A stretch of DNA of 39,532 nucleotides from a virus. Positions within the stretch are counted from its first letter, which is position 1, and every line of letters starts with the position of its first letter. The DNA lies in IMG/VR virus record IMGVR_UViG_3300023174_000334, positions 1 to 39,532 of that record; one strand, written 5' to 3'. The notes under the pieces were generated by a model. The model did not search any database, was not told the DNA's origin, and was given only the letters and a program-made list of their open reading frames with translations. Of this stretch, positions 22,263 to 37,223 are shown piece by piece. A program made the position numbers and the translations under genes.

Positions 22263-23159
22263 ATGACACTAATTGCAAAACCCGCACCCAAGGTTAACTA
22301 CCTTAACAACCGTGACATTTTAAAAGAAATACATTTAAGCAAAAACACCTACTGTAGTTTTAAAGACAGAACAACTGATCATCAGTTTGACATGATCTTA
22401 CCAAGTGTGGACAAAATCAATCAAAAGACCATTGCAGAAGCACGCCGCAATCGTGCTGACCGTCACAAACGTGAAACTGGCGAAGTGATTGATCCTAAAA
22501 AAATACCCAATACGGAAGTGGTTTTCCGTGTTATGACTTGGGAACACATACCCATGGCGCCCAAGAAAGTGCCCAAAACTGCCACTAAAAAGAAAAAGAT
22601 CGAAGACATCTTGGACTTGGATGACGTAGTAGAAGATCCCTTAGCGGACCTTGTTGAGGACGTTGTGCTGGATCCCACACACATGAGAGTTAACTTTCCC
22701 CCGTTCTGGCATTACAGACTGGACGAAAACAAAACCCCTGTGCTAGTGGGCAAAAGCCACTGGCGGGGCGATTTGGACTCTGGCGAGTTTTGCAAGGATC
22801 ATGGCAACATGACACGCAAACTGGCCATGATGTTTATGAAACTATGCGAACGCTATGCCACAAGATCAAACTGGAGAGGATACACATACAATGAAGAAAT
22901 GCGCGGACAAGCCCTGTTACAACTCAGTCAAATTGGCTTGCAATTTGACGAGTCAAAATCGCAGAACCCTTTTGCGTATTATACTGCCGCTATCACTAAT
23001 AGCTTTACTCGCATCCTGAACATTGAAAAGAAAAATCAAAACATCCGTGATGACATTCTTGAAATGAACGGACTCAATCCTTCGTGGACACGCCAAAACT
23101 CTGGCAAAGCAGGCATGGCTGCCATGAGTGGTCCGGTCACCACTACCTATGAAGAATGA
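22263..23159 (+). CDS. 55: Late-transcription sigma factor gp55
   Basis: Encodes 298 residues. The C-terminal part (about 178-285) matches the gp55 pattern: GNMTRKLAMMFMKLCERYA, NWRGYTYNEEM, a segment around NPFAYYTAAITNSFTRILN, then a basic helix ending NIRDDIL. These correspond to sigma region 2-like elements that recognise the TATAAATA late box. T4 gp55 has 185 residues, so this protein carries about 110 extra N-terminal residues, including a Lys-rich then Asp/Glu-rich linker (about 101-140). It would direct host RNA polymerase to the late promoters of the structural genes. It has its own sigma70-like promoter, and its stop overlaps the next ATG (ATGA). Confidence 0.92.
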   Translation: MTLIAKPAPKVNYLNNRDILKEIHLSKNTYCSFKDRTTDHQFDMILPSVDKINQKTIAEARRNRADRHKRETGEVIDPKKIPNTEVVFRVMTWEHIPMAPKKVPKTATKKKKIEDILDLDDVVEDPLADLVEDVVLDPTHMRVNFPPFWHYRLDENKTPVLVGKSHWRGDLDSGEFCKDHGNMTRKLAMMFMKLCERYATRSNWRGYTYNEEMRGQALLQLSQIGLQFDESKSQNPFAYYTAAITNSFTRILNIEKKNQNIRDDILEMNGLNPSWTRQNSGKAGMAAMSGPVTTTYEE

Positions 23160-24295
23160 GTCAAGTATATTGCACCGCACCATTCAATGGGTTGACTATC
23201 AGAGAAGATGGACATGTAAGAACATGCTGTACTGGAGAAGTCAGCCTTGGCAACCTCAATAGCCAGACCATTGAGGATATACAACATTCATCAACTTTAA
23301 GACAAATTCGTGAATCCATGCTCAATAACAATGCTCATGAGAATTGCGAATTTTGTGTATATCAAGAACAAACCAGCGGCCTTGCTTCCCTAAGAGAGCA
23401 TTATTTAAAATTTTATCCAAAGTATGACACGTTCCGATTAAAAAATATTGACGTTCGATGGAACAACACATGCAATCTCAGTTGTATGTACTGCACTCCA
23501 GAGTTTAGTAGCACTTGGGCTGAAAAATTAAACACAAGCAATTACAGTCCGGTAAAAAATTATCAGGATGACTTGCTGAGCTTTATATTAACGCATGTCG
23601 ATGATATAGATGAGATCACTCTGGTAGGCGGTGAGCCCATGTTGATGAAACAAAATTATGAATTAATTGCTAAATTACCCGATTCGTCTAGAGTTAGCAT
23701 AATAACCAATTTGTCTTACGATTTAGCACGGTTGCCTTGTACCCCAAATTTATTGAAGAGACCAAAAGAAAACACAGTATGGAACATCAGTTGTGAGAAC
23801 GTTGATCAACAATTTGAGTATGTTAGAACCGGTGGGCAGTGGCAACAAATGGAAACCAACTTGAAATTTTTAGTCCAGCATTGGCCTGACCAAGTTGTCA
23901 TTAACATGGTGTATAGTATGTTCAGTGCGTTTGACATTGTCGAGACTGTAGAAAGATTCTACCAAATTGGTATAAAAAAATTTAATTTTCAAACTTATTA
24001 TGGTCCATCGGCCGTGGATGTGTTTGCAATGCCAACTGCTGTGCAATCTCTAGCTGGCCAACAACTAGACACTGTTATAAAAACTCACTACAAAAATATT
24101 CATCCCGAAGATCACGATTTTTATCCCTTGGCAAATTTAAATTTAATCAAAACAAAACTAGCACAAGCACAAGGAGATGCTTGCTCAAGAAAAGAATTTT
24201 ATGAGCAAATTGCTTGGTATGATCAATGGTCAACCTTGAAATTCAAAGATCATTGGCCGCACGTGATTGATTTGGTTGAATTGCATCTTGAATAA
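23156..24295 (+). CDS. Radical SAM protein with N-terminal Cys-rich (twitch/SPASM-like) segment
   Basis: Encodes 379 residues. The radical SAM cluster motif CNLSCMYC (C106, C110, C113) and a GGEP motif (158-161) are clear. Ahead of it, residues 6-67 carry C6, C24, C25, C64 and C67 in a pattern like an auxiliary iron-sulfur twitch or SPASM domain (CTAPFNGLTIREDG, HVRTCCTG, NCEFC). That domain normally follows the barrel, so its position here is unusual. SPASM/twitch enzymes typically modify peptides or small molecules through a second cluster. No precursor peptide was recognised nearby. The start overlaps the gp55 stop (ATGA). The gene seems AT-richer than the gp46 region by eye. The substrate is unknown. 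Confidence 0.85.
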   Translation: MSQVYCTAPFNGLTIREDGHVRTCCTGEVSLGNLNSQTIEDIQHSSTLRQIRESMLNNNAHENCEFCVYQEQTSGLASLREHYLKFYPKYDTFRLKNIDVRWNNTCNLSCMYCTPEFSSTWAEKLNTSNYSPVKNYQDDLLSFILTHVDDIDEITLVGGEPMLMKQNYELIAKLPDSSRVSIITNLSYDLARLPCTPNLLKRPKENTVWNISCENVDQQFEYVRTGGQWQQMETNLKFLVQHWPDQVVINMVYSMFSAFDIVETVERFYQIGIKKFNFQTYYGPSAVDVFAMPTAVQSLAGQQLDTVIKTHYKNIHPEDHDFYPLANLNLIKTKLAQAQGDACSRKEFYEQIAWYDQWSTLKFKDHWPHVIDLVELHLE

Positions 24296-24321: not shown

Positions 24322-25338
24322 ATGACAAATCTATTCAAAAAAGCCGCGGTCTTTACAGACATACACTTTGGTCTAAAAAGCAACAGTCAAACACACAACG
24401 ATGACTGTTTGGATTTTGTAAAATGGGCAACTGCTACTGCACGGGAACAAGGTTGTGAAACTTGCTTGTTTCTGGGCGACTGGCACAACAACCGGGCCAG
24501 TTTGAACATTGTCACCCTGAGTTATAGTCTAAGAGCATTGGAGCATATGAATGACAATTTTGAACATGTGTATTTTATTCCTGGTAACCACGATTTATAT
24601 TATCGCGATAAACGTGACATTCAAAGCGTGGAGTGGGCAAAGCACCTCCCTCGTGTTCAAATCTGCAATGATTGGTTTAGCGATGGTGATGTCGTTATTG
24701 CCCCTTGGCTATGTGGCGACGATCATAAACGCATACCCAAACTAAAGGGCCGGTACATGTTCGGGCATTTTGAACTGCCCGGCTACTACATGAATGCCAT
24801 GGTGCAGATGCCAGATCATGGCACCATACAGCGTGGAGACTTTGGCGGCTTTGATCAAGTGTTTACTGGGCATTTCCATAAACGCCAAACTGCCAACAAC
24901 ATCACTTATATTGGCAACTGCTTTCCACACAACTACGCTGACGCTGGAGATGATGAACGTGGCATGATGATCTTGGAGTGGGGTCAAGAAGCTAAATATT
25001 ACGCTTGGCCAGATCAGCCCAGATATCGTGTGTACGGACTAGCCAACTTGATTGACAATGCCACCACACTGCTCGCTCCAAAGATGCATGTGCGTGTGAA
25101 TTTAGATATTGAAATTTCATACGAAGAAGCCAACTTTATTAAAGAAACATTTATTCGGGATTACAATTTGCGAGAAATGGCCCTGATTCCCAACAAGACT
25201 GCTGGTGTGGATGTGGACCTTGCACCTGGTGATGTCAAGTTTGAGTCTGTAGATCAAATTGTTACAGATCAACTCACCAACATTGAGTCCGAATTTTACG
25301 ACAACAAATTATTGTTGCAAATATATCAAAATTTATAA
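24322..25338 (+). CDS. 47: Recombination endonuclease subunit gp47 (SbcD/Mre11 type)
   Basis: Encodes 338 residues, the same size as T4 gp47 (339). All calcineurin-like phosphoesterase motifs are present in order: D13-I-H15, GDWH (52-55), GNHD (88-91), GHF (148-150) and GHFH (183-186), which bind two metal ions. With gp46 it forms the Mre11/Rad50-type nuclease that resects ends for recombination-dependent replication and host DNA breakdown. In T4 genes 46 and 47 are almost adjacent. Here five kilobases of metabolic genes lie between them. The ATG follows the radical SAM stop by 26 bases, within a promoter-like sequence. Confidence 0.95.
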   Translation: MTNLFKKAAVFTDIHFGLKSNSQTHNDDCLDFVKWATATAREQGCETCLFLGDWHNNRASLNIVTLSYSLRALEHMNDNFEHVYFIPGNHDLYYRDKRDIQSVEWAKHLPRVQICNDWFSDGDVVIAPWLCGDDHKRIPKLKGRYMFGHFELPGYYMNAMVQMPDHGTIQRGDFGGFDQVFTGHFHKRQTANNITYIGNCFPHNYADAGDDERGMMILEWGQEAKYYAWPDQPRYRVYGLANLIDNATTLLAPKMHVRVNLDIEISYEEANFIKETFIRDYNLREMALIPNKTAGVDVDLAPGDVKFESVDQIVTDQLTNIESEFYDNKLLLQIYQNL

Positions 25339-25343
25339 TATCT

Positions 25344-26201
25344 ATGTTTACAATTTCATTTAAATCAATAACAAACGCCTGTATGGTGGCTGTGGCCATG
25401 ACTATTGGTTGTTACGAGGCTTATGAAATTTTCACTGACTTTTCTTCACAATGGTATTGGCTTGTGTTTGCACTGTTCTACAGTGTGGTAATAAACGAAT
25501 ACTTTGGACACCTTTGTTGCGGACACAAGTTGTTTGACATTGACACTCGACGAATTACCTATAAAATTCTTGTGTTTTTTAACTGTGTTGATCATGCCTG
25601 GGGTCCGCCCACAGCAATGGCATTGACTCATGCCAATCATCACATGTATGCTGATCAAGGACGCAAAGATTCTCTCAATCCTAGAGTACACTATACCACT
25701 TGGTTTTTGAATCCAATACATTATCTCTATACCATACCAACTGAGTGGCCAGACAAAGACAAATATTTTGAGACTCAAGATCGAATTTTTCATGACATCA
25801 TTCATGATTCATGGACACAATTTTGCGAAGATAACTCGCACTGGTTGACTGTGATTTACTGGGCATTATTGTATGTGATATTCCCACTGTTTTTGTTCAA
25901 AGTGGTGTTCTTGGGTCGAATGCTGGTGGGTGTGTACTCACAGTTTGGTGGCATTCTAGCACATGGTAAAAATATTGGCGGGTACAGAAATTTTGACACC
26001 AATGATCGGTCCTACAACAAATTGATTTTGCATTATTTGTGTTTGTGCTTGATACCAGCAATGCTACACAATAACCATCATGGCCATGCATATAATTTTA
26101 AAACAGGACATCGGGTGAAATTTTTTGAGTTGGATCTAAGTGTGTATCCCATGAGGATGATTAGATTTCTACTGGAAAAAAAGCAATCTTACACTGCATG
26201 A
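25344..26201 (+). CDS. Membrane fatty acid desaturase-like protein
   Basis: Encodes 285 residues with three histidine boxes typical of membrane di-iron desaturases: H56-X4-H61, HANHH (96-100) and HNNHH (242-246). Hydrophobic stretches at about 11-25, 37-52 and 165-195 can span the membrane, with additional ones around 72-82 and 228-242. The family (acyl-CoA/acyl-lipid desaturases and related hydroxylases) uses O2 and an electron donor to introduce double bonds in fatty acyl chains. A carotene or sphingolipid type activity cannot be excluded. The ATG is five bases after the gp47 stop. During infection it could alter membrane fluidity, but that is inference. Confidence 0.85.
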   Translation: MFTISFKSITNACMVAVAMTIGCYEAYEIFTDFSSQWYWLVFALFYSVVINEYFGHLCCGHKLFDIDTRRITYKILVFFNCVDHAWGPPTAMALTHANHHMYADQGRKDSLNPRVHYTTWFLNPIHYLYTIPTEWPDKDKYFETQDRIFHDIIHDSWTQFCEDNSHWLTVIYWALLYVIFPLFLFKVVFLGRMLVGVYSQFGGILAHGKNIGGYRNFDTNDRSYNKLILHYLCLCLIPAMLHNNHHGHAYNFKTGHRVKFFELDLSVYPMRMIRFLLEKKQSYTA

Positions 26202-26238
26202 TTACATTCACAAACAACCAATACGTAATTGGATTTAC

Positions 26239-26275
26239 TTTTAGATACCAACACTTGGTGTATCATTTTAGATAC
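26239..26275 (+). promoter_or_regulatory. Direct repeat plus hairpin upstream of the dioxygenase operon
   Basis: The 10-bp sequence TTTTAGATAC occurs at 26239-26248 and again at 26266-26275, a 27-bp period. Between them is an inverted repeat ACCAA-cac-TTGGT (26247-26259) that can extend through GAT/ATC. This is the only sizeable gap (115 bp) in the upstream half of the plus-strand block and precedes the ATG at 26317, which has an AGGGAGA Shine-Dalgarno sequence. It may be an operator or promoter; no convincing -35/-10 pair was found. Confidence 0.4.
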
Positions 26276-26316
26276 ATGAAGTTGCAAAAGAGAATAGATG
26301 CAGGGAGACAATACTT

Positions 26317-27405
26317 ATGAAAGTCAGCAAGATACCTGGACTAGGCAGATTTGGCATCTTTGTAGATGATGTGGATTTTGATCACCTCACCGATGAAGAG
26401 TGGATGGAAATTGGACGTCTACACATCAAGAATTTGGTAACTATTATCCGTAACACCAATGCCACCCTTGAACAATTTAATCAGCGAATAAATCAATTTG
26501 GTACTCAACGTCTAAATCTAACAAATATATTGATTACCAAATATAAAAAAACAATGATAGAATTATATCAAATGTTAGAACAAGATGACCCGGTGTTAGA
26601 ACAGTCTGATCGTGACATGCTTATAAGTGCAAAAAATATAGCATTGCACATAGGCTCTATGCACAAAGTAGAAGATGGATTCACTGAGCAGGGAATACCT
26701 AATGGCCCATTTCCTGAAGGCGAACTTGGATGGCACAGCAATGAGCCTGGCCACCTTACATCTGTGCCTGGTGTGGCCTTGTATGGTCGTCGAGGCATGG
26801 TAGGTAGTGCCACTGGATTTTGTACCACAGTTGATTGGTATGAACAACAAAGTGAAAGTTTTCGTAGTGAATTAGACGAAATGATTGTTATTCATCAATT
26901 TACTCCAGACAAATTTCTCAAAGGATTAAAAAGTAAAATTGCATTAAACATGCTTTACCAAACATCAGGTCCTGTACAAGGAAGCGAAGTGCCCATGGTA
27001 ATACAGAGTCCCGGCGGTATACGTGGATTGCATTATTCGTATACTTCAGTGTTTGGTATCAAAGGTATGAGTCAAAAAGAATCACAACGCATTTTTGACA
27101 TAATTGATCAAGGTATATTTCAAGATCAATTTTTGTATGACCATTGGTATCAACAAGACCATGACATGTTATTGTTTGACAATTCTATTACCACACATCG
27201 AAGAATAGGCAAAGCTGAAAATCGCATGGCAGCCAGACTAACGTTTGACTACACCAAATTGCAAAAAGGATTTTATCAACCTTATATGAATCATGGCAAA
27301 ATAGCTCGGCAGTATATTCAAGAAATCAAACAACAAATTAACAATGGCAACGCTGCTGATTTTCATGCTCCTACCATGATAGATTATTTGAGGACCTTTT
27401 TATGA
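26317..27405 (+). CDS. TauD-like Fe(II)/2-oxoglutarate oxygenase, copy 1, with HxN metal motif
   Basis: Encodes 362 residues. A TauD/TfdA-type layout is visible: WHSNE (139-143) at the proximal metal site, the distal histidine in NSITTHRR (H294), and R303/R307 in NRMAAR where TauD has its 2OG-binding arginines. The normal HxD/E carboxylate position is Asn142, with Glu143 next to it. This could still bind iron, shift to HxxE, or give a halogenase-like open site. Residues 1-36 are almost identical to the next gene product, while 45-130 differ. The stop overlaps the next ATG (ATGA). The AT-rich sequence differs from gp46. Substrate unknown; a non-TauD cupin family is a weaker alternative. Confidence 0.75.
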   Translation: MKVSKIPGLGRFGIFVDDVDFDHLTDEEWMEIGRLHIKNLVTIIRNTNATLEQFNQRINQFGTQRLNLTNILITKYKKTMIELYQMLEQDDPVLEQSDRDMLISAKNIALHIGSMHKVEDGFTEQGIPNGPFPEGELGWHSNEPGHLTSVPGVALYGRRGMVGSATGFCTTVDWYEQQSESFRSELDEMIVIHQFTPDKFLKGLKSKIALNMLYQTSGPVQGSEVPMVIQSPGGIRGLHYSYTSVFGIKGMSQKESQRIFDIIDQGIFQDQFLYDHWYQQDHDMLLFDNSITTHRRIGKAENRMAARLTFDYTKLQKGFYQPYMNHGKIARQYIQEIKQQINNGNAADFHAPTMIDYLRTFL

Positions 27406-28505
27406 AAATCAGCAAAATACCCGGGCTGGGCAGATTTGGAATTTTTGTAGATGATGTTGATTTTGATCACATCACTGATGAAGAATGGATGGAAATTGGT
27501 CGATTACATTTAACCAGTCTTGTGACTATTATACGCAATGTTGATCTTTCTCCTGAACAATATCAAGTCTTGATGCAAAAATGGGGCACTCCCAGAGATA
27601 TCAATGCATCTAAAATTTGTAAAAAATATCGTCTTCCAATGTCTCAACTGGTTGAAAAAGTAAAAACTGGCAGCACACAAGATCTTGATGCCGAAGATAT
27701 TTTATGGATTCAAGGAATCATCAACATATTGTTAGTAAAAGACAATCGTGTTTATCAAATGATGAAAGTCACCGGGCGGCGCAATGAAAAAGGCGAAGCC
27801 CTGGGTATGTTTTCCGAAGGCGAATTGCTATGGCACAGCAACGAGTCCGGTAATCTTACGTTTACTCCTGCAGTAAGTTTGTTGGCACATGAAGGTGTGG
27901 TAGGCAGTGCCACAGGATTTTTAACCACAACAGACTGGTATGAAAAACAATCTGAATCATTTCGCAGTGAGCTAGATGAGATGGTTGTTTTGCACAAATT
28001 CACTCCTGGCAAGATCAATCCTGGTCTGAGAGAGGAACAAGATTTTATCATGTATAAAAACATGTGCCCGGTAGACAACACACCCATTCCCTTGGTAATA
28101 CAAAGTCCGGGCGGCATAAGTGGATTGCACTACAGTGTCAACACTATTAATCAAATTCAAGGCATGAGTGAAGTTGAATCGCAAAAACTGTTTGATTGCA
28201 TAAACAAAGAACTGTTTGTTGATGAGTTCATGTATGATCACTGGTATCAAAACAACAATGATTTGTGCTTGTTTGATAACAGTATTACTTTGCATAGAAG
28301 GCTGGGCGGTATCACTGATCGCATGTGTTATAGAATACAATATGATTATTCAAATTTGATAGATCAGCCTTACATTCCGTATTTTCAAAAATCATTTGCA
28401 AAACAATACAAAAAAGAAGTGCGAGAAATAGTAAAATATCTGGGAATAACTGATTTTAAACTGCCTAAAAAAGCCTGGTATGAGTACCTTACTATGCTAA
28501 GATGA
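27402..28505 (+). CDS. TauD-like Fe(II)/2-oxoglutarate oxygenase, copy 2, with HxN metal motif
   Basis: Encodes 367 residues and is a paralogue of the preceding gene product. It keeps WHSNE (144-148), the distal H298 in NSITLHRR, and R307/R311. The shared blocks ATGF.TT.DWYE.QSESFRSELDEM and VIQSPGGI.GLHYS run through the catalytic half. The variable region (about 40-135) probably carries the substrate-specific part, so the two may act on different substrates or successive steps. Both ends overlap neighbours by ATGA, tying it to copy 1 and to the following radical SAM gene. The Asn in place of the usual Asp is retained in both copies, so it is unlikely to be a sequencing error. Confidence 0.75.
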   Translation: MKISKIPGLGRFGIFVDDVDFDHITDEEWMEIGRLHLTSLVTIIRNVDLSPEQYQVLMQKWGTPRDINASKICKKYRLPMSQLVEKVKTGSTQDLDAEDILWIQGIINILLVKDNRVYQMMKVTGRRNEKGEALGMFSEGELLWHSNESGNLTFTPAVSLLAHEGVVGSATGFLTTTDWYEKQSESFRSELDEMVVLHKFTPGKINPGLREEQDFIMYKNMCPVDNTPIPLVIQSPGGISGLHYSVNTINQIQGMSEVESQKLFDCINKELFVDEFMYDHWYQNNNDLCLFDNSITLHRRLGGITDRMCYRIQYDYSNLIDQPYIPYFQKSFAKQYKKEVREIVKYLGITDFKLPKKAWYEYLTMLR

Positions 28506-30400
28506 AAAAAAATATTGTAGTATACAGCCCTTCTAGATTTTCCAATGAAGTATGGTTACCAGTTCTCTGGGCACAAGCCAAAACATATTATGAACGCAAC
28601 GGTAAACATACTGACCAATGGAATTGGGCGCCTTGCACTGCCGACATCTACAGTGACGATTTAAACAAAGTAAAAATTACTCTGGGTCACATTGAACCTG
28701 ATGTATTTGCAGTGAGCCTGTATGTTTGGAATTACAACATTGGTCATAAAATAGCACAATGGGTCAAACAGCAATGGCCAAAGTGCATTGTTGTCACTGG
28801 AGGGCCGCATCAATATTTCAAATATGACGACGATTGGTTTGTGAAATATCCTTACATTGACGCCAGCTTGCCAGGTGAAAATTCTGGCGAGTTGTGTTTG
28901 CAACAGATTTTAGACAACGTTGACAATGACAACAGCATAGACTGGAATTTGGTAGCAGACGTTTGTTATCCGCATAAAACATCGCGACGTGCTGTGCGTA
29001 GCAAAAAAATTTCAACTACATCAGACAAACAAGATTTTGACTACAACTGGAGTGCGTTTGACAGTCAATTTGAATATCTAAAAAACTTTGCCAGCTTGGC
29101 CAAGACAGTTGACCCCACAATGAAAATACTCAGTATCATTGAAACCACTCGAGGTTGTCCGTATGGCTGCACCTACTGTGACTGGGGAGGTGGTATCAAC
29201 ACCAAGGTACTGAAAAAACCCATTGAAGTTGTCAAGCAAGACATTGATGCCATATGCCAGCTAAATTTGCATTTTTTATATTTTGCAGATGCCAATTTTG
29301 GAATCTTTGGCAGCAGAGACGTTGACATACTGCAATATCTTGCTGACCAACGATTGGCACACGCACAGTTTTTCAACACTGGCTACGGTGGGTTTGCCAA
29401 AACAGAAAACAAATTGTCGTACATTGAACAAATCTTAAAAATTGATTTGAAATATCAATTGAGTTTGCTCAACGAAATCAAATTGAGCCTGCAAAGTCTG
29501 GATCCAGAAGTATTAAAAATCATTGATAGAAAAAATGTTTCTTTGAGCAAACAAATGGCCATGCTAAAAAACATTACACCTTGGTATAAAAAACTTCCCA
29601 TTTACATTGAGTTGATTTATGGTTTGCCGGGAATGACCTTGGAGAAATTTTATCAAGAGTTAGATTTTTTAGGTGCTAAAAAATTATCTATCCAATGGTA
29701 TCCTTGGATACTACTTCCCGAAGCTCCAGCATACAGCAGAGAGTATCGAAACCAATATCAGTTAAAAACATTGATAAAGACGTCTGGGTGGTGGACCTAT
29801 GAAAACGAAACAAATAATTTAAATGAAATAGTGGTTGAAAGTTTTTCCTACAACCAAGATCAATATTTAGAAATGTTGCTGAGCAGTGGGCTGTACAAAC
29901 TTTTTGTACAAGGCGGGTACCTTCAAGACTTTGCCCAATGGTTACAGCATGATCAACAAATACCGTTGGGGCAATTGATTCAATCAATTTATCAAGAGTT
30001 TTTGCCAACTACCAAGTTTTTAGATCCAGTGGTCAATGCCTGGGAACAACAAATTTTACAAGATTCTACCACTGGATGTTTTATCAAAGTACAAGATCAA
30101 GATGTTTATCTTGGTCTGTATCTAGTAGCCATGGCATTTTTGCACCACAAAGAATTTACTTTGAAATTGGTAGAATGGGCCAAACAAAAATATCAGTGCC
30201 CTGCTCGTGTGTTTGACCAGGATCTCAAATTGGCCATACACAAGGACAATTTTGGTCACAAAACACAAGGATTGATACGATACAACTACAACAAAAAGTT
30301 TTTCAATATGAAAAATGAATTACGAAAAATGTTGTTGATGTTTGTTCAGTTTGCACATTCTGGGCATGCAATTCGAGGCCGGCGTTCATTTTTACTGTAG
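28502..30400 (+). CDS. B12-binding-type radical SAM protein, 632 aa
   Basis: Encodes 632 residues. Residues about 1-140 look like a cobalamin-binding Rossmann-type domain (NIVVYSPSRF; PDVFAVSLYVWNYN; CIVVTGGPHQYFKYDDD). The 4Fe-4S motif is RGCPYGCTYCDWG (C219, C223, C226), followed by a barrel with FADANFG and IELIYGLPGMTLE. The C-terminal 200 residues are unassigned. This architecture is used for methylation and other radical rearrangements, but the N-terminal domain may have lost B12 binding: no DxHxxG motif is seen, as in many family members. The ATGA overlap with dioxygenase copy 2 suggests one pathway. Two hand-counted lines are 32-37% GC. Confidence 0.85.
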   Translation: MKKNIVVYSPSRFSNEVWLPVLWAQAKTYYERNGKHTDQWNWAPCTADIYSDDLNKVKITLGHIEPDVFAVSLYVWNYNIGHKIAQWVKQQWPKCIVVTGGPHQYFKYDDDWFVKYPYIDASLPGENSGELCLQQILDNVDNDNSIDWNLVADVCYPHKTSRRAVRSKKISTTSDKQDFDYNWSAFDSQFEYLKNFASLAKTVDPTMKILSIIETTRGCPYGCTYCDWGGGINTKVLKKPIEVVKQDIDAICQLNLHFLYFADANFGIFGSRDVDILQYLADQRLAHAQFFNTGYGGFAKTENKLSYIEQILKIDLKYQLSLLNEIKLSLQSLDPEVLKIIDRKNVSLSKQMAMLKNITPWYKKLPIYIELIYGLPGMTLEKFYQELDFLGAKKLSIQWYPWILLPEAPAYSREYRNQYQLKTLIKTSGWWTYENETNNLNEIVVESFSYNQDQYLEMLLSSGLYKLFVQGGYLQDFAQWLQHDQQIPLGQLIQSIYQEFLPTTKFLDPVVNAWEQQILQDSTTGCFIKVQDQDVYLGLYLVAMAFLHHKEFTLKLVEWAKQKYQCPARVFDQDLKLAIHKDNFGHKTQGLIRYNYNKKFFNMKNELRKMLLMFVQFAHSGHAIRGRRSFLL

Positions 30401-30417
30401 ATTTACAGCAACAACTG

Positions 30418-30426
30418 TGCTATAAT
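30418..30426 (+). promoter_or_regulatory. Extended -10 promoter before gp46
   Basis: TGC-TATAAT is a perfect -10 with the extended TGn element, ending eight bases before the gp46 ATG at 30435. No good -35 is seen. A short inverted repeat CTGTA-gatt-TACAG (30395-30408) overlaps the previous stop codon. The transcript would have a leader of at most a few bases, with no Shine-Dalgarno sequence. Confidence 0.55.
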
Positions 30427-30434
30427 GCATCAAT

Positions 30435-32198
30435 ATGATTCAAATTAAAAACCTTACTGTACGTAATTTCATGAGTGTGGGCGCGGCCACACAAGGCATT
30501 GACTTTGATCGTCAGGACTTGACCTTGGTCTTGGGCGAAAACCTGGACCTAGGTGGCGACGGAAGTCGTAATGGCACAGGCAAGACCACTATCATCAATG
30601 CGTTGAGTTATGCCATGTACGGACAAGCATTGAGCAACATTCGCAAGGACAACCTTGTGAACAAGACCAATGCCAAGGGCATGATGGTCAGCCTGGACTT
30701 TGCCGTCAACGGCAAGAATTACAAAATTGAACGTGGGCGCAAACCCAATGTGTTGCGCTTCTTTGTGGACAGTGAACAACTCACAGCACAAGATGATGCA
30801 CAAGGCGACAGTCGCGAAACACAGGATGCCATTGAAAATGTATTTGGCATGAGCCATGACATGTTCAAACACATCCTGGCCCTGAACACCTACACCGAAC
30901 CGTTTTTGAGTTTGAAGGCCAATGACCAACGCACCATAATTGAACAGTTGTTGGGTATCACAATGTTGAGTGAACGTGCTGATCGCATCAAAGAGTTGAA
31001 TCGTGGTACCAAGGACGCCATCACACAAGAAGAATTCCGTATACGTGCTGTGCAAGAAGCCAACAAACGCATTGAAGAACAGATAGAAAGTCTGAAGCGC
31101 AGACAAACTTTATGGACCACCAAACATGCAGATGACCTTGTAAAACTACAGACAGCATTGCAGTCTTTACAAAACATCGATATTGACGCAGAAATCGCCT
31201 CGCACAAAGAACACGCTGCCTGGGATCAACGTCGTCGTGACATCAATGACTTGGCCACTCAAATCAGCAGAACCAAACTGGATGTTCAGCGTGAAGAAAA
31301 AACTGTGGCCAAACTTGTGAAAGAAATTGAAAGTTTGGAAGCACACACTTGCCACACCTGTGGTCAAGAGTTTCACGATGCCAAACACACCAAGGTGCTG
31401 GCAGACAAAAAACGAGACTTAGCAGATGCCGAAACCAATGCAGCATCGCACACAGCCGTGTTGGCTGAACTGCAAACGGCACACACCGAACTGGGTGTGC
31501 TGGGCAAACCTCCCGCCATGTTCTATGACAACGAAGATGATGCTTTCAAGCATCGCAGTACCTTGGAGTCACTGCAACAACAGATTCAAAGCAAACAGGC
31601 TGAATCAGATCCTTACACCGATCAAATCTCAGACATGGAGCATCAAGCTCTGCAAACTGTGACCTATGATCATTTGAATGATCTCACTAGAGTTCAGGAC
31701 CATCAAGAGTTCTTGTTGAAACTACTCACCAGCAAAGACAGTTTTGTTCGCAAAAAAATCATTGATCAGAATTTGAGTTACCTGAACGCACGACTCACAT
31801 GGTACTTGGATAGAATTGGCCTGCCACACACTGTGAAGTTTCAGAACGACTTGAGTGTGAGCATTGAAGAACTGGGCCGTGAGCTGGACTTTGACAACTT
31901 GAGTCGTGGTGAGCGCAATAGATTGATACTCAGTATGAGTTGGGCATTCCGTGACGTGTGGGAAAGTTTGTACAGCCCCATCAACATCTTGTTTATTGAC
32001 GAAATGATTGATTCTGGACTAGACACCCAAGGTGTGGAGAATGCATTAGCCTTGTTAAAGAAAATGACACGTGAACGCAACAAGTCAATTTGGTTGGTAT
32101 CGCACAGGGATGAACTGGCTGGACGGGTGGAGAACATCTTGCGTGTTGTGAAAGAAAATGGGTTTACCAGCTACAACACGGACGTAGATATTGCATAA
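30435..32198 (+). CDS. 46: Recombination endonuclease subunit gp46 (SbcC/Rad50 type)
   Basis: Encodes 587 residues, close to T4 gp46 (560). Walker A is at 46-52 (NGTGKTT). Two coiled-coil arms flank a zinc-hook C306-H-T-C309 (AHTCHTCGQEF). The ABC signature is LSRGERNR (489-496), with Walker B NILFIDE (517-523) and a D-loop after it, then a switch-region histidine in WLVSHRDE. It is the ATPase partner of gp47, driving DNA end processing for recombination. The hook CxxC dimerises the arms through zinc. One hand-counted line is about 53% GC. The stop is directly followed by the next ATG. Confidence 0.96.
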   Translation: MIQIKNLTVRNFMSVGAATQGIDFDRQDLTLVLGENLDLGGDGSRNGTGKTTIINALSYAMYGQALSNIRKDNLVNKTNAKGMMVSLDFAVNGKNYKIERGRKPNVLRFFVDSEQLTAQDDAQGDSRETQDAIENVFGMSHDMFKHILALNTYTEPFLSLKANDQRTIIEQLLGITMLSERADRIKELNRGTKDAITQEEFRIRAVQEANKRIEEQIESLKRRQTLWTTKHADDLVKLQTALQSLQNIDIDAEIASHKEHAAWDQRRRDINDLATQISRTKLDVQREEKTVAKLVKEIESLEAHTCHTCGQEFHDAKHTKVLADKKRDLADAETNAASHTAVLAELQTAHTELGVLGKPPAMFYDNEDDAFKHRSTLESLQQQIQSKQAESDPYTDQISDMEHQALQTVTYDHLNDLTRVQDHQEFLLKLLTSKDSFVRKKIIDQNLSYLNARLTWYLDRIGLPHTVKFQNDLSVSIEELGRELDFDNLSRGERNRLILSMSWAFRDVWESLYSPINILFIDEMIDSGLDTQGVENALALLKKMTRERNKSIWLVSHRDELAGRVENILRVVKENGFTSYNTDVDIA

Positions 32199-33683
32199 AT
32201 GGACGCAGTGATTGTTAACATACCAAGAATGGCACCTAGCCGGCCCAGTGCAGGCACAGCGCTGATCAAAAGTTTGTTGAACAACAATCATGTATCAAAC
32301 CAACTGGTAGATATCAACATTGATTTTTTCAATCGTTTTGCTGTGCAATACGGTGCAGAGCAGTTTCAAGAACTTGATAGATATTTTTACAATGACAACG
32401 TTGTATTGTCTGCTACCACAAACCAAAGTTATCAACAATTATTGACTGAGTGGATTCAACGCATTATTGCACTTGATCCCAAGTGGGTACTGATCAGCAT
32501 CTTTACCTGGCAATGTCAAAACTTTGCTAGAGACTTTGTCAAGCAACTTAGAACTGAAACCAAGGCCAAGATTGTGATAGGTGGTCAAGGTATGATCAAA
32601 AGTGAGAACACCAGTTTCAATGAAAACCCTTACTTTGCCAAAGAACTCTTGGCTTCGGGTGCTATAGACTATTACATACAAGGCGAAGCAGAAAAAGCCT
32701 TGCCTGAATTGTTGCGTGGCAATGTCACATTCCCAGGTATCAATTCTGACACATTTGCTGAACGCAGTGAAATGAATGAGGTACCTGTATACGACTTTTC
32801 TGATCACGACATCACAGCATATCACAGTGGGTATTCAGATGGTCAGTTGCCCTTGGAAAGCAGCCGTGGCTGTGTACGATCATGCTCGTTCTGTGATTGG
32901 CCTGTGTATGCCGGCGGATTTCGCAGCAAGCCCGGAGACCAGTTGTTTGAAGAGTGTGTGGGCTACTATCACCAACACGGAACAACCAACTACTACTTCA
33001 ACGACAGTTTGATCAACGGCGATTTAAAAGACTTTAGACAGTTCAATCGCAGACTGGTAGAATACTACGAACAGCACAACTTGCCAGATCGCACATTAAA
33101 ATACAGCGGCATGTACATTGTGCGCAAGCCCAATCAATGGCAGGAAGCGGATTGGGCGTTGATCAGTCGTGGCGGTGCAGATACCTTGTTGATTGGTGTA
33201 GAAACTGGATCAGATCGTGTGCGCAAAGAAATGGCCAAAGGATTCAACAGTGCAGACTTAGACTTTACTGTGCAAATGGCCAGTCGATACAAAATCAAAT
33301 TGTACTTCTTGATGATTGTGGGCTGGCCCAGTGAGACTCGGGCAGACTTTGAAGAAACACTAGATCTACTGCGCCGGTATCAACGTTATGTGGCAGATGG
33401 CACACTGATGGGCATCAACTTTGGCACCAGCCTGACCATAGGCGAAGGCACACCTGTTTATCTCAATCCAGAAAAGTTCGACCTAGTGGGCGTGGATGGC
33501 AAACGGCCAAACGATGTGTTCTGGATGCACCAGCACAACCCTGAACTCACCTACAAAGAACGTGTGCTACGGCGAATCGAAGCACAGGAACTGGCCATTA
33601 GTCTGGGCTATACATTCTGGAAAGGCGACGACCAGTTGACTTTTATTCGTAACAAGTACGAAAGGATTTTGCTTGAACATTGA
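32199..33683 (+). CDS. B12-binding-type radical SAM protein, 494 aa
   Basis: Encodes 494 residues. The first 180 residues form a likely cobalamin-binding-type domain (DAVIVNIPRMAPSRPSAGTA; WVLISIFTWQ; KIVIGGQGM; YYIQGEAEKALPELL). The iron-sulfur motif is SRGCVRSCSFCDWP (C225, C229, C232). The barrel continues with LLIGVETGSDRVRKEM and a FLMIVGWPSETRADFEETL segment typical of the MiaB/B12 radical SAM group. It differs clearly from the 632-residue enzyme. It begins directly at the gp46 stop and its 3' end overlaps the next gene by 11 bases, so it heads the radical SAM/PLP run. One line is about 57% GC. Substrate unknown. Confidence 0.85.
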   Translation: MDAVIVNIPRMAPSRPSAGTALIKSLLNNNHVSNQLVDINIDFFNRFAVQYGAEQFQELDRYFYNDNVVLSATTNQSYQQLLTEWIQRIIALDPKWVLISIFTWQCQNFARDFVKQLRTETKAKIVIGGQGMIKSENTSFNENPYFAKELLASGAIDYYIQGEAEKALPELLRGNVTFPGINSDTFAERSEMNEVPVYDFSDHDITAYHSGYSDGQLPLESSRGCVRSCSFCDWPVYAGGFRSKPGDQLFEECVGYYHQHGTTNYYFNDSLINGDLKDFRQFNRRLVEYYEQHNLPDRTLKYSGMYIVRKPNQWQEADWALISRGGADTLLIGVETGSDRVRKEMAKGFNSADLDFTVQMASRYKIKLYFLMIVGWPSETRADFEETLDLLRRYQRYVADGTLMGINFGTSLTIGEGTPVYLNPEKFDLVGVDGKRPNDVFWMHQHNPELTYKERVLRRIEAQELAISLGYTFWKGDDQLTFIRNKYERILLEH

Positions 33684-34230
33684 AATCTTTTTGCACTGCG
33701 AAACCAGACTGGGTATGCCACACATACGTTGCACCATAGACGAAGGTGCTCCATTCTTTGACGGCCCGGCACAGGAACATATCTCTGCCACGGTGGGCGT
33801 TGCACCCGGATTTCACGAACTGGTGATCAGTCACTACAACAAACAAGATCATGACCATGTGTTGGACAATGAAGGGCGTATCATCATAGACAAGCATGTT
33901 GAGATCCTGGGTATTGGCATAGATGACATTGCATTTAAGATAGACGAACTGCGACAAGCGCACTTCTATCCTGTGTATAATTCTGTGTATTATCAACAAC
34001 AACTGGCACAAGGTAATCCGCTGCCGCCCAGCATTTCGCCCAACTTGTACTTGGGCCACAACGGCATTTGGAAGTTGAATTTTCATACTCCGTTTGTGGA
34101 ATACATTATACAGAAACGCCGCAACCTGGCCATTAACCTGGACAACACTATTTTTCAAAGTGATGTTGAACTGCTGAAGCAAACCAAAGCCTGGATACAG
34201 GCACAACCGGATATTGTATGGAACACCTAG
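33673..34230 (+). CDS. Small beta-rich protein, module copy 1 (unknown)
   Basis: Encodes 185 residues. A TTG start is chosen because AAGGA lies six bases upstream and the reading frame there aligns with the N-terminus of its paralogue at 35233; the next ATG would remove the first strands. The two share an order of blocks: a GMPHIR or GLPNIR strand, a central ISHYNK or IEHYGK, a DK/DR..E...I.ID/VD segment, and a YLGHNGIWKLNF or FFGKNGTWRIAF motif near the end. The predicted fold is a beta-sandwich; a carbohydrate- or ligand-binding role is possible but unproven. It overlaps the next gene by 13 bases, so it probably works with the PLP-like partner. Confidence 0.75.
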   Translation: MNIEIFLHCETRLGMPHIRCTIDEGAPFFDGPAQEHISATVGVAPGFHELVISHYNKQDHDHVLDNEGRIIIDKHVEILGIGIDDIAFKIDELRQAHFYPVYNSVYYQQQLAQGNPLPPSISPNLYLGHNGIWKLNFHTPFVEYIIQKRRNLAINLDNTIFQSDVELLKQTKAWIQAQPDIVWNT

Positions 34231-35255
34231 GCAGACAGTTTGCTATCGCCATGGCCAAGGCACAGAATCCTGATGCTGACTTTTGGGCAGTGCGTTCTGC
34301 TGTCAACGGCTACTATATTGGCAGTAGAGTAGATCGAGATCCTGCTGTGGAAACTTTACTAGCTGCATCAATTCGGCCTGATGATATAGTACGTGCTGCC
34401 AACAGCAGTGATCAACTGCGGCAGTTAGAACAACGTTTTGCTGGTTGGATTCAACGCCACAGCACCAGCACCATTGTGGGATTAGACCAGTATGAGCCAG
34501 ACTACAGTGAAGGCAGCACACAGGCTTTTGATAGTTTTTACTTTAGACACAGACACAGACGCTTTCGTTGCTTTGTGGGAGAATACTTTTATCATCTCAA
34601 GACTTGGATCAGCAACAAAGCGGATTGGAATTTCGTCACAGAATCAGATCCGTTGCTGCCTGGCGATGCTCTTGTTTTGAGTGTGCCATTTTGCGACACT
34701 GTGGCACCAGTTGAAAACTATGATCGAATAATGTCCATATGCGATGCACAAAACATTCCTGTGCTCTTGGACTTGTGCTATTGGCCCATCTGTCATGACT
34801 TACACATTGATTTGCGTTATACTTGTATAGACACTGTGGCATTTAGTCTTAGCAAGGCTTGGCCTGTGGGCACTGCCCGAATAGGCATGCGATACACTCG
34901 CCCAGGCACATTCGATGGACAACGACTGCATCACAGCATAGGATACAACAACAATGTGGGTGCCATGATAGGCAACGTATTGTTAGATAATTTTAAACCA
35001 GACTGGATTCATACCTCACGTCAAAGTAAATACAAAACTGTGTGTGACGTATTCAACTTACAGCCTACCAACAGTGTGAACTTTGGCATTGGCGATGCCT
35101 CCTGGAATCGGTACAATCGCAGAGAACTGCTGAAGTCTTATCAACTGGACTTTGATCCTGCCTTGTTTGTAAATCGTATTTGTGTGAACCGAGTGTATCA
35201 ACACTGGGATTTGTTTAGGACTTTTTGTCGACATGAACTTAGCATTAAAATTTAA
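34218..35255 (+). CDS. Fold-type I PLP-enzyme-like (aminotransferase-like) protein, module copy 1
   Basis: Encodes 345 residues. Class I/II aminotransferase landmarks are present: a GSTQAF glycine-rich loop (about 99-104), an aspartate in VLLDLCYWP (D185) where D binds the pyridine nitrogen, and the presumed Schiff-base lysine K213 in AFSLSKAWPVG, followed by ARIGMR (R221). This pattern is shared with the 353-residue protein downstream. Substrate-binding features of named aminotransferases were not recognised, and the reaction could be transamination, decarboxylation or none. It overlaps both neighbours (13 and 23 bases), suggesting stoichiometric production with the two small proteins. It could also be a PLP-fold protein used structurally. 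Confidence 0.75.
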   Translation: MEHLGRQFAIAMAKAQNPDADFWAVRSAVNGYYIGSRVDRDPAVETLLAASIRPDDIVRAANSSDQLRQLEQRFAGWIQRHSTSTIVGLDQYEPDYSEGSTQAFDSFYFRHRHRRFRCFVGEYFYHLKTWISNKADWNFVTESDPLLPGDALVLSVPFCDTVAPVENYDRIMSICDAQNIPVLLDLCYWPICHDLHIDLRYTCIDTVAFSLSKAWPVGTARIGMRYTRPGTFDGQRLHHSIGYNNNVGAMIGNVLLDNFKPDWIHTSRQSKYKTVCDVFNLQPTNSVNFGIGDASWNRYNRRELLKSYQLDFDPALFVNRICVNRVYQHWDLFRTFCRHELSIKI

Positions 35256-35718
35256 AAATATACAAGACTGTAATGGTCTGCCTAATATACGTATTGTGAT
35301 CAATGACGCTGTGGTGTTTGAAAATACAGTGTGCCCGTTGATTACCGTACAATGCCATCCTGTGGACAACAAAATAAACTTGAGCATTGAACACTACGGC
35401 AAAGATCCTTCAACGGATACTGTGGTTGTTAACGGTGCTATTGTACAAGACCGCAGTTGCGAACTAGACACCATCGAAGTAGATGGCTACGACTTGCAAG
35501 AACTAAAGTGGCTGAGTGCGTATCACTGTGATGACGACAGTGTATTAGACAAATGTTTGTTTTTTGGCAAGAACGGCACATGGCGCATTGCATTTGAATT
35601 GCCTGCGCTGAAATGGATACTGCGCACCAGACATGAGATCAACCGCAATGATCCCAACTGGTCTGAAGATTATGAAAGTTATGTGAGTGCATGCAGACTG
35701 CTGAACAAATCAATTTAA
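35233..35718 (+). CDS. Small beta-rich protein, module copy 2 (unknown)
   Basis: Encodes 161 residues and is a diverged paralogue of the 185-residue protein at 33673. Shared elements are GLPNIRIVIND, NLSIEHYGKDP, a VDGYDLQEL segment and FFGKNGTWRIAF (NGxW motif) before the C-terminal helix. The insertion holding the Tyr/Gln-rich loop in copy 1 is shorter here. The start lies inside the preceding gene (23-base overlap) and the end overlaps the next by 28 bases. The repeated order small protein then PLP-like protein shows the pair was duplicated as a unit. No catalytic motif or membrane segment is seen. Confidence 0.75.
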   Translation: MNLALKFKNIQDCNGLPNIRIVINDAVVFENTVCPLITVQCHPVDNKINLSIEHYGKDPSTDTVVVNGAIVQDRSCELDTIEVDGYDLQELKWLSAYHCDDDSVLDKCLFFGKNGTWRIAFELPALKWILRTRHEINRNDPNWSEDYESYVSACRLLNKSI

Positions 35719-36752
35719 TACGTCGAATCAGTTGGGCGTTGGCCAAGGCCAGTGCTGAAGACTGCTTAGATACGCCTGGCGAGTTTGTATGGGCATATCC
35801 CAACAACTCACAGTTCTGGGAAGTGCGAGCACGTAGCCACAGCATATTCAGCAGTGGCAATGCCATCAAAGACTCAACAGTGATTGATTTTGTCAACAGT
35901 TTGAGTTTGAGTGAGCACCTTAGAGACTGCTGGATTGTCAACAAGTTTCAAGAAGCATTTCCTAGTTGGATTGCTGCTGGCACTAGATACCGGTTGCATA
36001 ACTTAGATCAGTTCCGGTATGTGGGCTTTTCACAAGGTACACAGGAATCTTTCCTGAACTGGTACATGATGCATAAAGACAAGCGACTGCGAGTGTTTCG
36101 TGGCGACTATTGGTGGCACATGGAGATCTGGCAGAAGGCCGGCTTCAACTGGCGGTACATTGATGATGACTTTGATATACAGCCTGGTGATGCGTGTATA
36201 TGCAGTTTGCCGTTTGCACTCACAGGTCAAGAGCATGAACGCTTTAAATGGCTGGTAGAACAATGTGACCGTCAAGGTGTGGACCTGCTGGTAGACTTTA
36301 TCTACTTGCCCAACAGCAACAATGTAGTTGACATTGACTTGAGTGCAGACTGCATCAAAGAAATAACATTCAGTCTCAGCAAAACGTTTCCTGTACAAAC
36401 AGCCAAGATTGCTGTGCGTATGTTGAAACACAAACCCAGCGATCCCATGCAAATGAGCAACGATGAAAACATCTGCAACAGATTAAGCAGCGGTCTAGCA
36501 TTGAGTCTGATACAGCAGTTTCCTGCGGATTACATGGTCAACAAATATCTGGATCAACAGCAACACTGGTGCGAGAGACTGGGATTACAGCCCACTGGCG
36601 TGGTGCATTTTGGGCTGGGCAACGACTACACAGCCACAGGCAGACAGCAAGAAACAAACTATCTAAGCCGCTACAACGAGCAACAAAACCGCTATAATTT
36701 AGGCATGTTATACGAAAATCAAAATCTTTTAAAAAATCTCCAATTATACTAA
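35691..36752 (+). CDS. Fold-type I PLP-enzyme-like (aminotransferase-like) protein, module copy 2
   Basis: Encodes 353 residues. It keeps the family pattern of copy 1: SQGTQESF (about 114-121) at the glycine loop, D202 in LLVDFIYLP, and K231 in TFSLSKTFPVQTAKI. Copy 1 and copy 2 align over most of their length but at low identity, so the duplication is old or the two have specialised. The glycine loop here reads GTQESF in place of GSTQAF. The 28-base overlap with the upstream gene places it in the same translational unit. Its stop ends the run, and a 42-base gap precedes the GIY-YIG gene. Whether both copies are active enzymes is untested. Confidence 0.75.
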   Translation: MQTAEQINLIRRISWALAKASAEDCLDTPGEFVWAYPNNSQFWEVRARSHSIFSSGNAIKDSTVIDFVNSLSLSEHLRDCWIVNKFQEAFPSWIAAGTRYRLHNLDQFRYVGFSQGTQESFLNWYMMHKDKRLRVFRGDYWWHMEIWQKAGFNWRYIDDDFDIQPGDACICSLPFALTGQEHERFKWLVEQCDRQGVDLLVDFIYLPNSNNVVDIDLSADCIKEITFSLSKTFPVQTAKIAVRMLKHKPSDPMQMSNDENICNRLSSGLALSLIQQFPADYMVNKYLDQQQHWCERLGLQPTGVVHFGLGNDYTATGRQQETNYLSRYNEQQNRYNLGMLYENQNLLKNLQLY

Positions 36753-36794: not shown

Positions 36795-37223
36795 ATGACA
36801 TGGCAATATCAAGACACCCCAGTTGAGACTTTACCCGAAGAATGTGTGGGATTTGTTTATCTAATTACAAATAATCTATCTGGACGCAAGTACATAGGCA
36901 AAAAATTAGCAAAATTTTCAAAAACAACGTACAAGACAGTAAAACAAAAGAACGGCATCAAAAAGCGGAAGAAGATACGCACTAAGATCGACTCAGATTG
37001 GCGTGAGTACTATGGGTCAAGCCCAGAATTAACCGCAGACGTAATCACTTTAGGCACCGAAAACTTCACCAGAGAAATACTTTATTATTGCAAAAGCAAA
37101 AGTGAGTGCAGTTACATTGAGGCACGAGAGCAATTCAGTAGACGAGTATTGGAATCAGCAGATTATTACAACGGCCATATACAAGTACGTGTACATGGCT
37201 CACACATCAAAGATAAAATTTAA
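36795..37223 (+). CDS. GIY-YIG nuclease-like protein
   Basis: Encodes 142 residues. GFVYLI (19-24), with GRKYIGKK following (KYIG at 32-35), is the GIY-YIG signature. E109 in SYIEAREQ fits the catalytic glutamate position. A Lys/Arg-rich stretch (44-64) between signature and core should bind DNA. There is no obvious C-terminal DNA-recognition domain as in I-TevI, so it could be a small phage-encoded nuclease and not a homing enzyme. Similar single-domain proteins are common in marine T4-like phages. It is the last plus-strand gene before the convergent non-coding region. No clear Shine-Dalgarno sequence is next to the ATG. Confidence 0.75.
   Translation: MTWQYQDTPVETLPEECVGFVYLITNNLSGRKYIGKKLAKFSKTTYKTVKQKNGIKKRKKIRTKIDSDWREYYGSSPELTADVITLGTENFTREILYYCKSKSECSYIEAREQFSRRVLESADYYNGHIQVRVHGSHIKDKI

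Follow-up and report, generated by a model that had tools for sequence, protein, structure and literature searches.

Islands rich in radical S-adenosylmethionine (SAM) genes have been noticed in T4-like and jumbo phages since 2010, and their function is unassigned (PMC2853527, PMC5332604, PMC7029224). Described examples include an exchangeable cluster of 10-12 genes in the Campylobacter phages CP220 and CPt10, which holds five radical SAM genes and whose function is unknown (PMC2853527), radical SAM cassettes within the host-recognition region of pelagimyophages (PMC7029224), a marine T4-like genome with 12 radical SAM genes (PMC5332604), and a carbamoyltransferase cluster of a jumbo cyanophage that was read as polysaccharide decoration or secondary metabolism (PMC7824862). 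Here we analyse a five-gene run at positions 32199-36752 of a 39.5-kb IMG/VR virus record (IMGVR_UViG_3300023174_000334, the whole of which is referred to as the window), in which a radical SAM gene (rSAM1) is followed by genes for two small proteins (S1 and S2) and two pyridoxal phosphate (PLP) enzyme-like proteins (PLP1 and PLP2). New in this analysis is that one radical-SAM-rich set is tied to a defined conserved trio, PLP1-S2-PLP2, together with a partner of PLP and radical SAM enzymes that is predicted to resemble family 60 carbohydrate-binding modules (CBM60); also new are related operons with a single PLP gene, always near a StrB-like amidinotransferase. We tentatively read the trio as part of a sugar-tailoring pathway, which provides a concrete, testable chemistry leading from alcohol to ketone, amine and guanidine.

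The CP220/CPt10 module, which likewise belongs to T4-like phages, combines radical SAM genes with glycine/inosamine amidinotransferase and nucleoside diphosphate (NDP)-sugar-transferase-like genes and is akin to the present islands, but its proteins are only distantly alike and neither the PLP1-S2-PLP2 trio nor an S-type protein is annotated in it. Pelagibacter phage Mosig (EXVC030M) encodes a single aminotransferase homologous to the PLP proteins (28% identity, E = 2e-9), and has MoaA-like genes, a carbamoyltransferase, a desaturase and a TauD-type oxygenase beside its tail fibres; it differs in having one PLP gene, with no S partner annotated next to it, and in being distant in sequence. Among aminoglycoside pathways, BtrN, a twitch radical SAM enzyme, oxidises an aminocyclitol alcohol, and aminotransferases aminate such ketones (PMC9012708), and the B12 radical SAM enzymes GenD1 and GenK methylate sugars (PMC5461906). 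With its StrB-type amidinotransferases, aminoglycoside tailoring is similar to the phage clusters in its kinds of enzyme and its pathway logic, but it serves bacterial antibiotic pathways and uses aminotransferases of another subfamily. To our knowledge, it operates without a CBM-like partner. A preliminary description of the window, made from the sequence alone, had not recognised the pathway; radical-SAM-rich phage clusters with an amidinotransferase are in fact published (PMC2853527), whereas our literature search found no description of the trio, of the divergent PLP clan or of the CBM60-like partner.

Gene organization of the locus

The run comprises the following genes:

32199..33683, + strand: rSAM1, likely B12-type radical SAM protein and partner of S1 (PF04055, PF02310, CX3CX2C motif, PDB matches)
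33673..34230, + strand: S1 (small-1), S2 homologue of the radical-SAM-linked lineage (comparison to S2, S tree, locus L077)
34218..35255, + strand: PLP1, fold-type-I aminotransferase-like enzyme with motif SxPFCD (alignment; relatives match PF00155; tree group 89/81)
35233..35718, + strand: S2 (small-2), between PLP1 and PLP2, predicted CBM60-like beta-sandwich with C-terminal helical hairpin (predicted structure)
35691..36752, + strand: PLP2, fold-type-I aminotransferase-like enzyme with motif SxPFAL (predicted structure, Foldseek, VIA-align)

The five open reading frames, their order and the overlaps between neighbours (11, 13, 23 and 28 bases) are exactly as first described, and the motifs reported at that stage (HYNK/HYGK, NGxW and SLSK) are present in the proteins. 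Both proposed paralogies were also recovered, each from a single comparison: PLP1 and PLP2 share 26% identity over 314 amino acids (E = 2e-40), and S1 and S2 share 23% over 142 (E = 1e-9). The start codon of S1 is TTG, with an AAGGA-type ribosome site upstream. Close loci keep the 23-base overlap of PLP1 with S2 and the 28-base overlap of S2 with PLP2, and this recurrence of gene order and overlaps in relatives argues that the arrangement is not due to chance.

PLP1-S2-PLP2 is the conserved unit

Scans of viral contigs yielded more than 60 loci; because some are overlapping assemblies or near copies, the locus counts given here do not represent independent events. Assignment by motif gave 42 PLP1 and 52 PLP2 genes. 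Every PLP2 gene (52/52) is immediately preceded by an S gene, and 39 of 42 PLP1 genes are immediately followed by one; the position directly upstream of PLP1 is occupied by gp46 in 25 of 42 and by an S in 8 of 42. The recurrent order is gp46 - PLP1 - S2 - PLP2 - GIY-YIG, with PLP2 immediately followed by the GIY-YIG (SegE type) gene in 28 of the 52 loci, and contexts that do not include gp46 occur as well. Two PLP paralogues are present in all long records that carry S (7/7), and the phages that carry the PLP pair with S are large and come from lakes and the sea. Marine loci L046-L055 and L059 have S and PLP2 with no adjacent PLP1; the single long record with this arrangement, G008, has a very diverged second PLP gene elsewhere, beside an S and a radical SAM gene.

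S1-type proteins, by comparison, accompany a radical SAM gene (L010, L015, L018, L022, L098 and L102), and S1 is absent from most loci that bear PLP1. Locus L077 has an S and radical SAM pair on a contig with no PLP gene at all. A tree of 64 S proteins required 5 changes of partner label, compared to 18 in shuffles. In this tree, whose deep branches are weak, S proteins encoded between PLP1 and PLP2 cluster separately from S1; in the sole S1 row labelled as PLP-only (L008), the contig ends within the radical SAM gene. On the PLP tree, PLP1 forms one group (89/81) and PLP2-type proteins cluster together. Since S1 follows the radical SAM gene and PLP1 mostly occurs without S1, the locus consists of two units, radical SAM with S1 and PLP1-S2-PLP2, of which the first is an optional insert. 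The preliminary description had instead proposed that a pair of small protein and PLP enzyme was duplicated as a pair, each small protein working with its PLP partner. We rejected the duplicated pair given the scarcity of S upstream of PLP1, the PLP-free contig of L077 and the separate S lineages; the proposed partnership is supported for S2 and PLP2, which are always adjacent, but not for S1 and PLP1.

Sequence affinities in L006 (positions 985-3504) are mixed: PLP1 and S2 of this chimeric trio resemble the L011/L024 group (48% and 53% identity to the window), while its PLP2 is 92% identical to that of the window, which suggests recombination within the trio. L064 has an intact PLP homologue at 1416-2435 and a second one, at 11279-12092 near the contig end, that is split over two reading frames. 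Searches by tblastn with PLP1, PLP2 and S2 as queries detected no homologues among isolate phages, and the isolate Mosig was reached only through distant single-PLP relatives. A PLP protein from a Bacteroidota metagenome-assembled genome, used as a query, recovered nothing further among the viral contigs. L072, whose contig is attributed to a SAR11 bacterium (Pelagibacteraceae single-cell genome), also has a PLP-clan gene, of phage or host origin.

PLP proteins belong to a divergent fold-type-I clan

The structural model of PLP2 (predicted local distance difference test (pLDDT) 89.0) has a class I/II aminotransferase fold, with a Foldseek match to HisC at E = 8e-10 and a VIA-align Z of about 22 to C-S lyases and aminotransferases, which bears out the initial designation as PLP-like. 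Residues G116, Y140, H143, P174, F175, D202, Y205, S230, K231, R243 and R334 are invariant in 37/37 aligned PLP sequences. Alignment to HisC, read in the light of the cofactor residues known from aminotransferases, identifies K231, D202, Y205 and R243 as the catalytic lysine, the pyridine aspartate, the tyrosine and the phosphate arginine. From its sequence context, R334 is probably the C-terminal arginine that binds a carboxylate (equivalent to R386 of aspartate aminotransferase, AAT); it is lost in the distant relatives L065-L070.

An intact cofactor pocket had been named at the outset as a check on the PLP assignment, and the lysine, aspartate, tyrosine and arginine are indeed in place, although the pocket is unusual: the asparagine of the NPxNPTG motif (AAT N194) is replaced by Ala in PLP2, by Cys in PLP1 and by Ala, Ser, Pro or Thr in relatives. 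Compared to class I/II aminotransferases (PF00155; HisC, OvoB, Plu4 and C-S lyases), the PLP proteins thus share the fold and Lys231, Asp202, Tyr205, Arg243 and Arg334, but those of the window have SxPF(A/C)x in place of NPxNPTG. Given the replaced asparagine, we place them in a divergent clan of the superfamily and not within a named aminotransferase family. The PF00155 profile gave no matches to the window PLP proteins, and 17/37 aligned members match it at E <= 0.1 (best 3.2e-6). A very diverged relative with the lysine motif SMHK occurs in L102 (5779-6774, minus strand), adjoining an S gene, a B12-type radical SAM gene and tail-fibre-like genes.

S2 has a predicted CBM60-like fold

The AlphaFold2 model of S2 (pLDDT 93.4) consists of a beta-sandwich followed by two C-terminal helices that form a hairpin, in keeping with the earlier label of small beta protein. 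In VIA-align comparisons the model is closest to 2xfd, a CBM60-type structure (Z 12.0 over 99 residues at 2.3 Å), with 2xhh second at Z 11.3 and unrelated folds at no more than 7.1; Foldseek again placed 2xfd and 2xhh at the top, at E of about 2e-3. We therefore assign S2, on the basis of this model, a CBM60-like beta-sandwich fold. The proteins nonetheless differ from the calcium-dependent CBM60 modules, to which they are 12-13% identical, in that they stand alone and carry two extra helices. Three close folds were found in BFVD, all from uncultured Caudovirales. The CBM60 profile PF16841 weakly matched 2 of 29 S proteins (best E = 0.0076), and sequence searches of Pfam, PHROGs and the PDB with the S proteins returned nothing useful. 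Few residues are invariant in the family (K57, I70, D73 and G115). L096 (2783-3627, minus strand) encodes two tandem S-type proteins, the second judged by eye, which adjoin a probable GT-A glycosyltransferase gene and a nicotinamide mononucleotide (NMN)-adenylyltransferase-like gene.

Gene neighbourhoods suggest aminoglycoside-like sugar tailoring

The long relatives, defined as the six records of at least 84 kb (L090-L095: G001, G002, G003, G005, G007 and G008), each contain 6-13 NF033640 twitch radical SAM genes, about five of them in tandem in a conserved array. A carbamoyltransferase gene follows the array in 6/6 records and an AGAT/StrB-type amidinotransferase gene in 4/6; the amidinotransferases have HGD and GGxSCCTQDxRR motifs and PDB matches at E = 1e-14. 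Before the arrays lie tail-fibre-like proteins and, as read from sequence, GT-A-like glycosyltransferases, and glycosyltransferase-like genes are common neighbours. G008 has S-PLP2 directly after the carbamoyltransferase gene inside the array, followed by a DegT aminotransferase gene, and further S proteins adjoin radical SAM genes or sit near amidinotransferases.

Single-PLP marine phages (L104, L107-L146) share a fixed operon composed of a 2-oxoglutarate (2OG) oxygenase, a cupin-type oxygenase, PLP and an amidinotransferase. The amidinotransferase lies within three genes downstream of PLP in 41/41 loci, many of which are near copies, and is nearest to the inosamine-phosphate amidinotransferase 1bwd (E = 1e-94). 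The ADI profile PF02274 missed the amidinotransferases, which the PDB sequence search picked up. Near most of these operons are two genes designated m4 and m5, the former radical SAM (nearest, weakly, to 7wzv and cytosylglucuronate decarboxylase) and the latter read as glycosyltransferase-like, together with a twitch radical SAM gene. The PLP gene and a twitch radical SAM gene overlap in the T4-like L065-L068 and L070, and in Mosig the PLP homologue is located between radical-SAM-like (MoaA-annotated) and carbamoyltransferase genes on one side and tail-fibre genes on the other. An annotated cluster of L149, the isolate Synechococcus phage S-SCSM2R, contains glycosyltransferases, a radical SAM gene, an inosamine amidinotransferase and 2OG oxygenases.

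We tentatively favour the view that the PLP pair is the aminotransferase unit of a phage pathway tailoring an aminoglycoside-like sugar or cyclitol, with S as a glycan-docking subunit acting in trans; of the substrates suggested in the preliminary description (nucleotide, sugar or cofactor), this would single out the sugar. Several observations point in this direction: the fold and conserved residues of the PLP proteins; the combination of twitch radical SAM, carbamoyl- and amidinotransferase and glycosyltransferase-like genes beside tail-fibre-like genes in long relatives, with S-PLP2 inside such a set in G008; the single-PLP operons, in which a 1bwd-like amidinotransferase accompanies 2OG and cupin oxygenases and radical SAM genes; the position of the Mosig aminotransferase; and the CBM60-like model of S together with the conserved trio. 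The analogy to aminoglycoside pathways (BtrN, aminotransferases, B12 radical SAM methylases) further suggests a ketone as the substrate that the PLP unit aminates. The step from alcohol to ketone would fall to a twitch radical SAM dehydrogenase that acts like BtrN or to a 2OG oxygenase, and the PLP enzyme, perhaps as a heterodimer of PLP1 and PLP2, would then convert the ketone of the oxidised sugar or cyclitol to an amine, its amino-acid donor being held by the conserved C-terminal Arg. Other phage enzymes could amidinate, carbamoylate and C-methylate the aminated product, and phage glycosyltransferases would attach it, most likely to tail fibres or a host surface glycan. S2, as a CBM60-like subunit, may anchor the two PLP enzymes to the glycan or to its carrier, a role that S1 may play for the radical SAM enzyme. 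In a more specific version, which we regard as unlikely, the CBM60-like proteins dock the radical SAM and paired PLP enzymes in trans so that a PLP heterodimer aminates a glycan already on the tail fibre or host surface; if true, this would be a new enzyme architecture and a phage-borne means of diversifying adhesion glycans. Mosig is a cultured carrier of a homologue, and the likely target is tail fibres or an envelope glycan.

Several points weigh against sugar tailoring. The sugar substrate is something that we infer; most sugar aminotransferases described belong to the DegT type and are not class I/II-like, and a DegT gene lies beside S-PLP2 in L051/L095. The replaced Asn194 makes a non-transaminase PLP reaction possible. 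The likeness of S to CBM60 is one of fold, and a PF16841 search over 7 whole long-relative records gave no match. Finally, the trio of the window adjoins gp46, not glycosyltransferases.

The enzymes might instead make a small soluble metabolite, for auxiliary metabolism or as an antibiotic-like product, with S as a structural chaperone that binds no ligand. The secondary-metabolite proposal for the jumbo cyanophage carbamoyltransferase cluster (PMC7824862) is a precedent for this idea, and the few invariant residues of the S family would suit it, but related clusters are found repeatedly beside tail-fibre genes and the CBM-like fold points to a glycan or polymer, such that we consider a soluble product improbable.

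rSAM1 and possible peptide substrates

The B12-type assignment originally given to rSAM1 is likely but divides by domain. The radical SAM domain (PF04055, E = 8.9e-12) and the CX3CX2C motif (C225/C229/C232, invariant in 9 aligned sequences) are clear, while the B12-binding domain (PF02310) scores 29.6 bits, below the cut-off of 32.1. The best PDB match is 9ccb (E = 4e-10), with OxsB, CysS and AprD4 weaker, and scores to named B12 radical SAM equivalogs (KedN5, PhpK, TIGR04072 and others) are far under the curated cut-offs. Taken together, rSAM1 is a radical SAM protein with a probable B12 domain and falls outside the named families.

rSAM1 also matches C-methyltransferase models of ribosomally synthesized and post-translationally modified peptides (RiPPs), below their cut-off, which is one of several features that would fit modification of an amino acid or peptide, either a small secreted metabolite or a virion-protein side chain, with S as a peptide-recognition subunit comparable to RiPP recognition elements. 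Peptides are frequent substrates of twitch/SPASM radical SAM enzymes, the twitch-domain protein of the window (23156..24295) is nearest to SkfB in the PDB (E = 9e-6), the conserved Arg334 suits an amino-acid carboxylate, and Asp/Arg-hydroxylase-type oxygenases adjoin the Mosig homologue. We nevertheless find this explanation doubtful: S is modelled as CBM60-like and not as a winged helix, an inosamine-phosphate enzyme is the closest match to the amidinotransferase in the single-PLP operons, and glycosyltransferase-like genes are frequent neighbours. A precursor-peptide gene was not noticed, no systematic search having been made.

The trio lies at an insertion hot spot

The surroundings of the locus in the window are as follows:

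23156..24295, + strand: twitch-domain radical SAM protein (N_Twi_rSAM; NF033640 214 bits, cut-off 170)
24322..25338, + strand: gp47/SbcD-like metallophosphoesterase, which bounds the insertion hot spot on its other side (PF00149, E = 3.4e-6)
25344..26201, + strand: fatty-acid-desaturase-like protein, probably membrane-bound, with three His boxes (sequence; weak NF049918 match, E = 4.9e-6)
26317..28505, + strand: tandem TauD-family 2OG dioxygenases (PF02668, E = 3e-14 and 6e-14)
28502..30400, + strand: second B12-type radical SAM protein, most similar to KedN5-like C-methyltransferases (PF04055, E = 1.8e-8; NF033712 at 145 bits and E = 2.4e-42, under its cut-off of 700)
30435..32198, + strand: gp46/SbcC-like recombination subunit, conserved upstream flank (phrog_77, E = 3.6e-99)
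36795..37223, + strand: SegE-type GIY-YIG endonuclease, conserved flank of the trio (PF19835, E = 1.3e-32)

Across relatives, insertions concentrate in the gp47-gp46 interval (24322-32198 in the window) and in the region after gp46. The cargo in the window comprises the desaturase-like gene, the two TauD paralogues and the KedN5-like radical SAM gene, with the twitch radical SAM gene just before gp47.

A further alternative is hypermodification of phage DNA bases. The trio adjoins the recombination genes gp46 and gp47, and radical SAM and PLP enzymes take part in thymidine hypermodification in phages such as M6, which gives this chemistry a precedent. The gp47 and gp46 genes, however, flank a hot spot with unrelated cargo, and the carbamoyl-, amidino- and glycosyltransferase neighbours are better suited to glycans. 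M6-like base-modifying genes have been noted previously (PMC9476957). A search of 8 related records for PF18723, the family of the 5-hmdU DNA kinase, gave no match, a weak negative given that the positive control was silent. Overall, we judge DNA modification to be very unlikely.

The gp46 protein of the window is nearest to those of the jumbo phages PA5oct and Atu_ph07, at about 43-52% identity; no publication linking PA5oct to radical SAM came up in the literature search. Baseplate-type genes are encoded on the opposite strand of the window. The first 50 residues of the two TauD paralogues are almost the same, compared with 49% identity overall, as if by local gene conversion.

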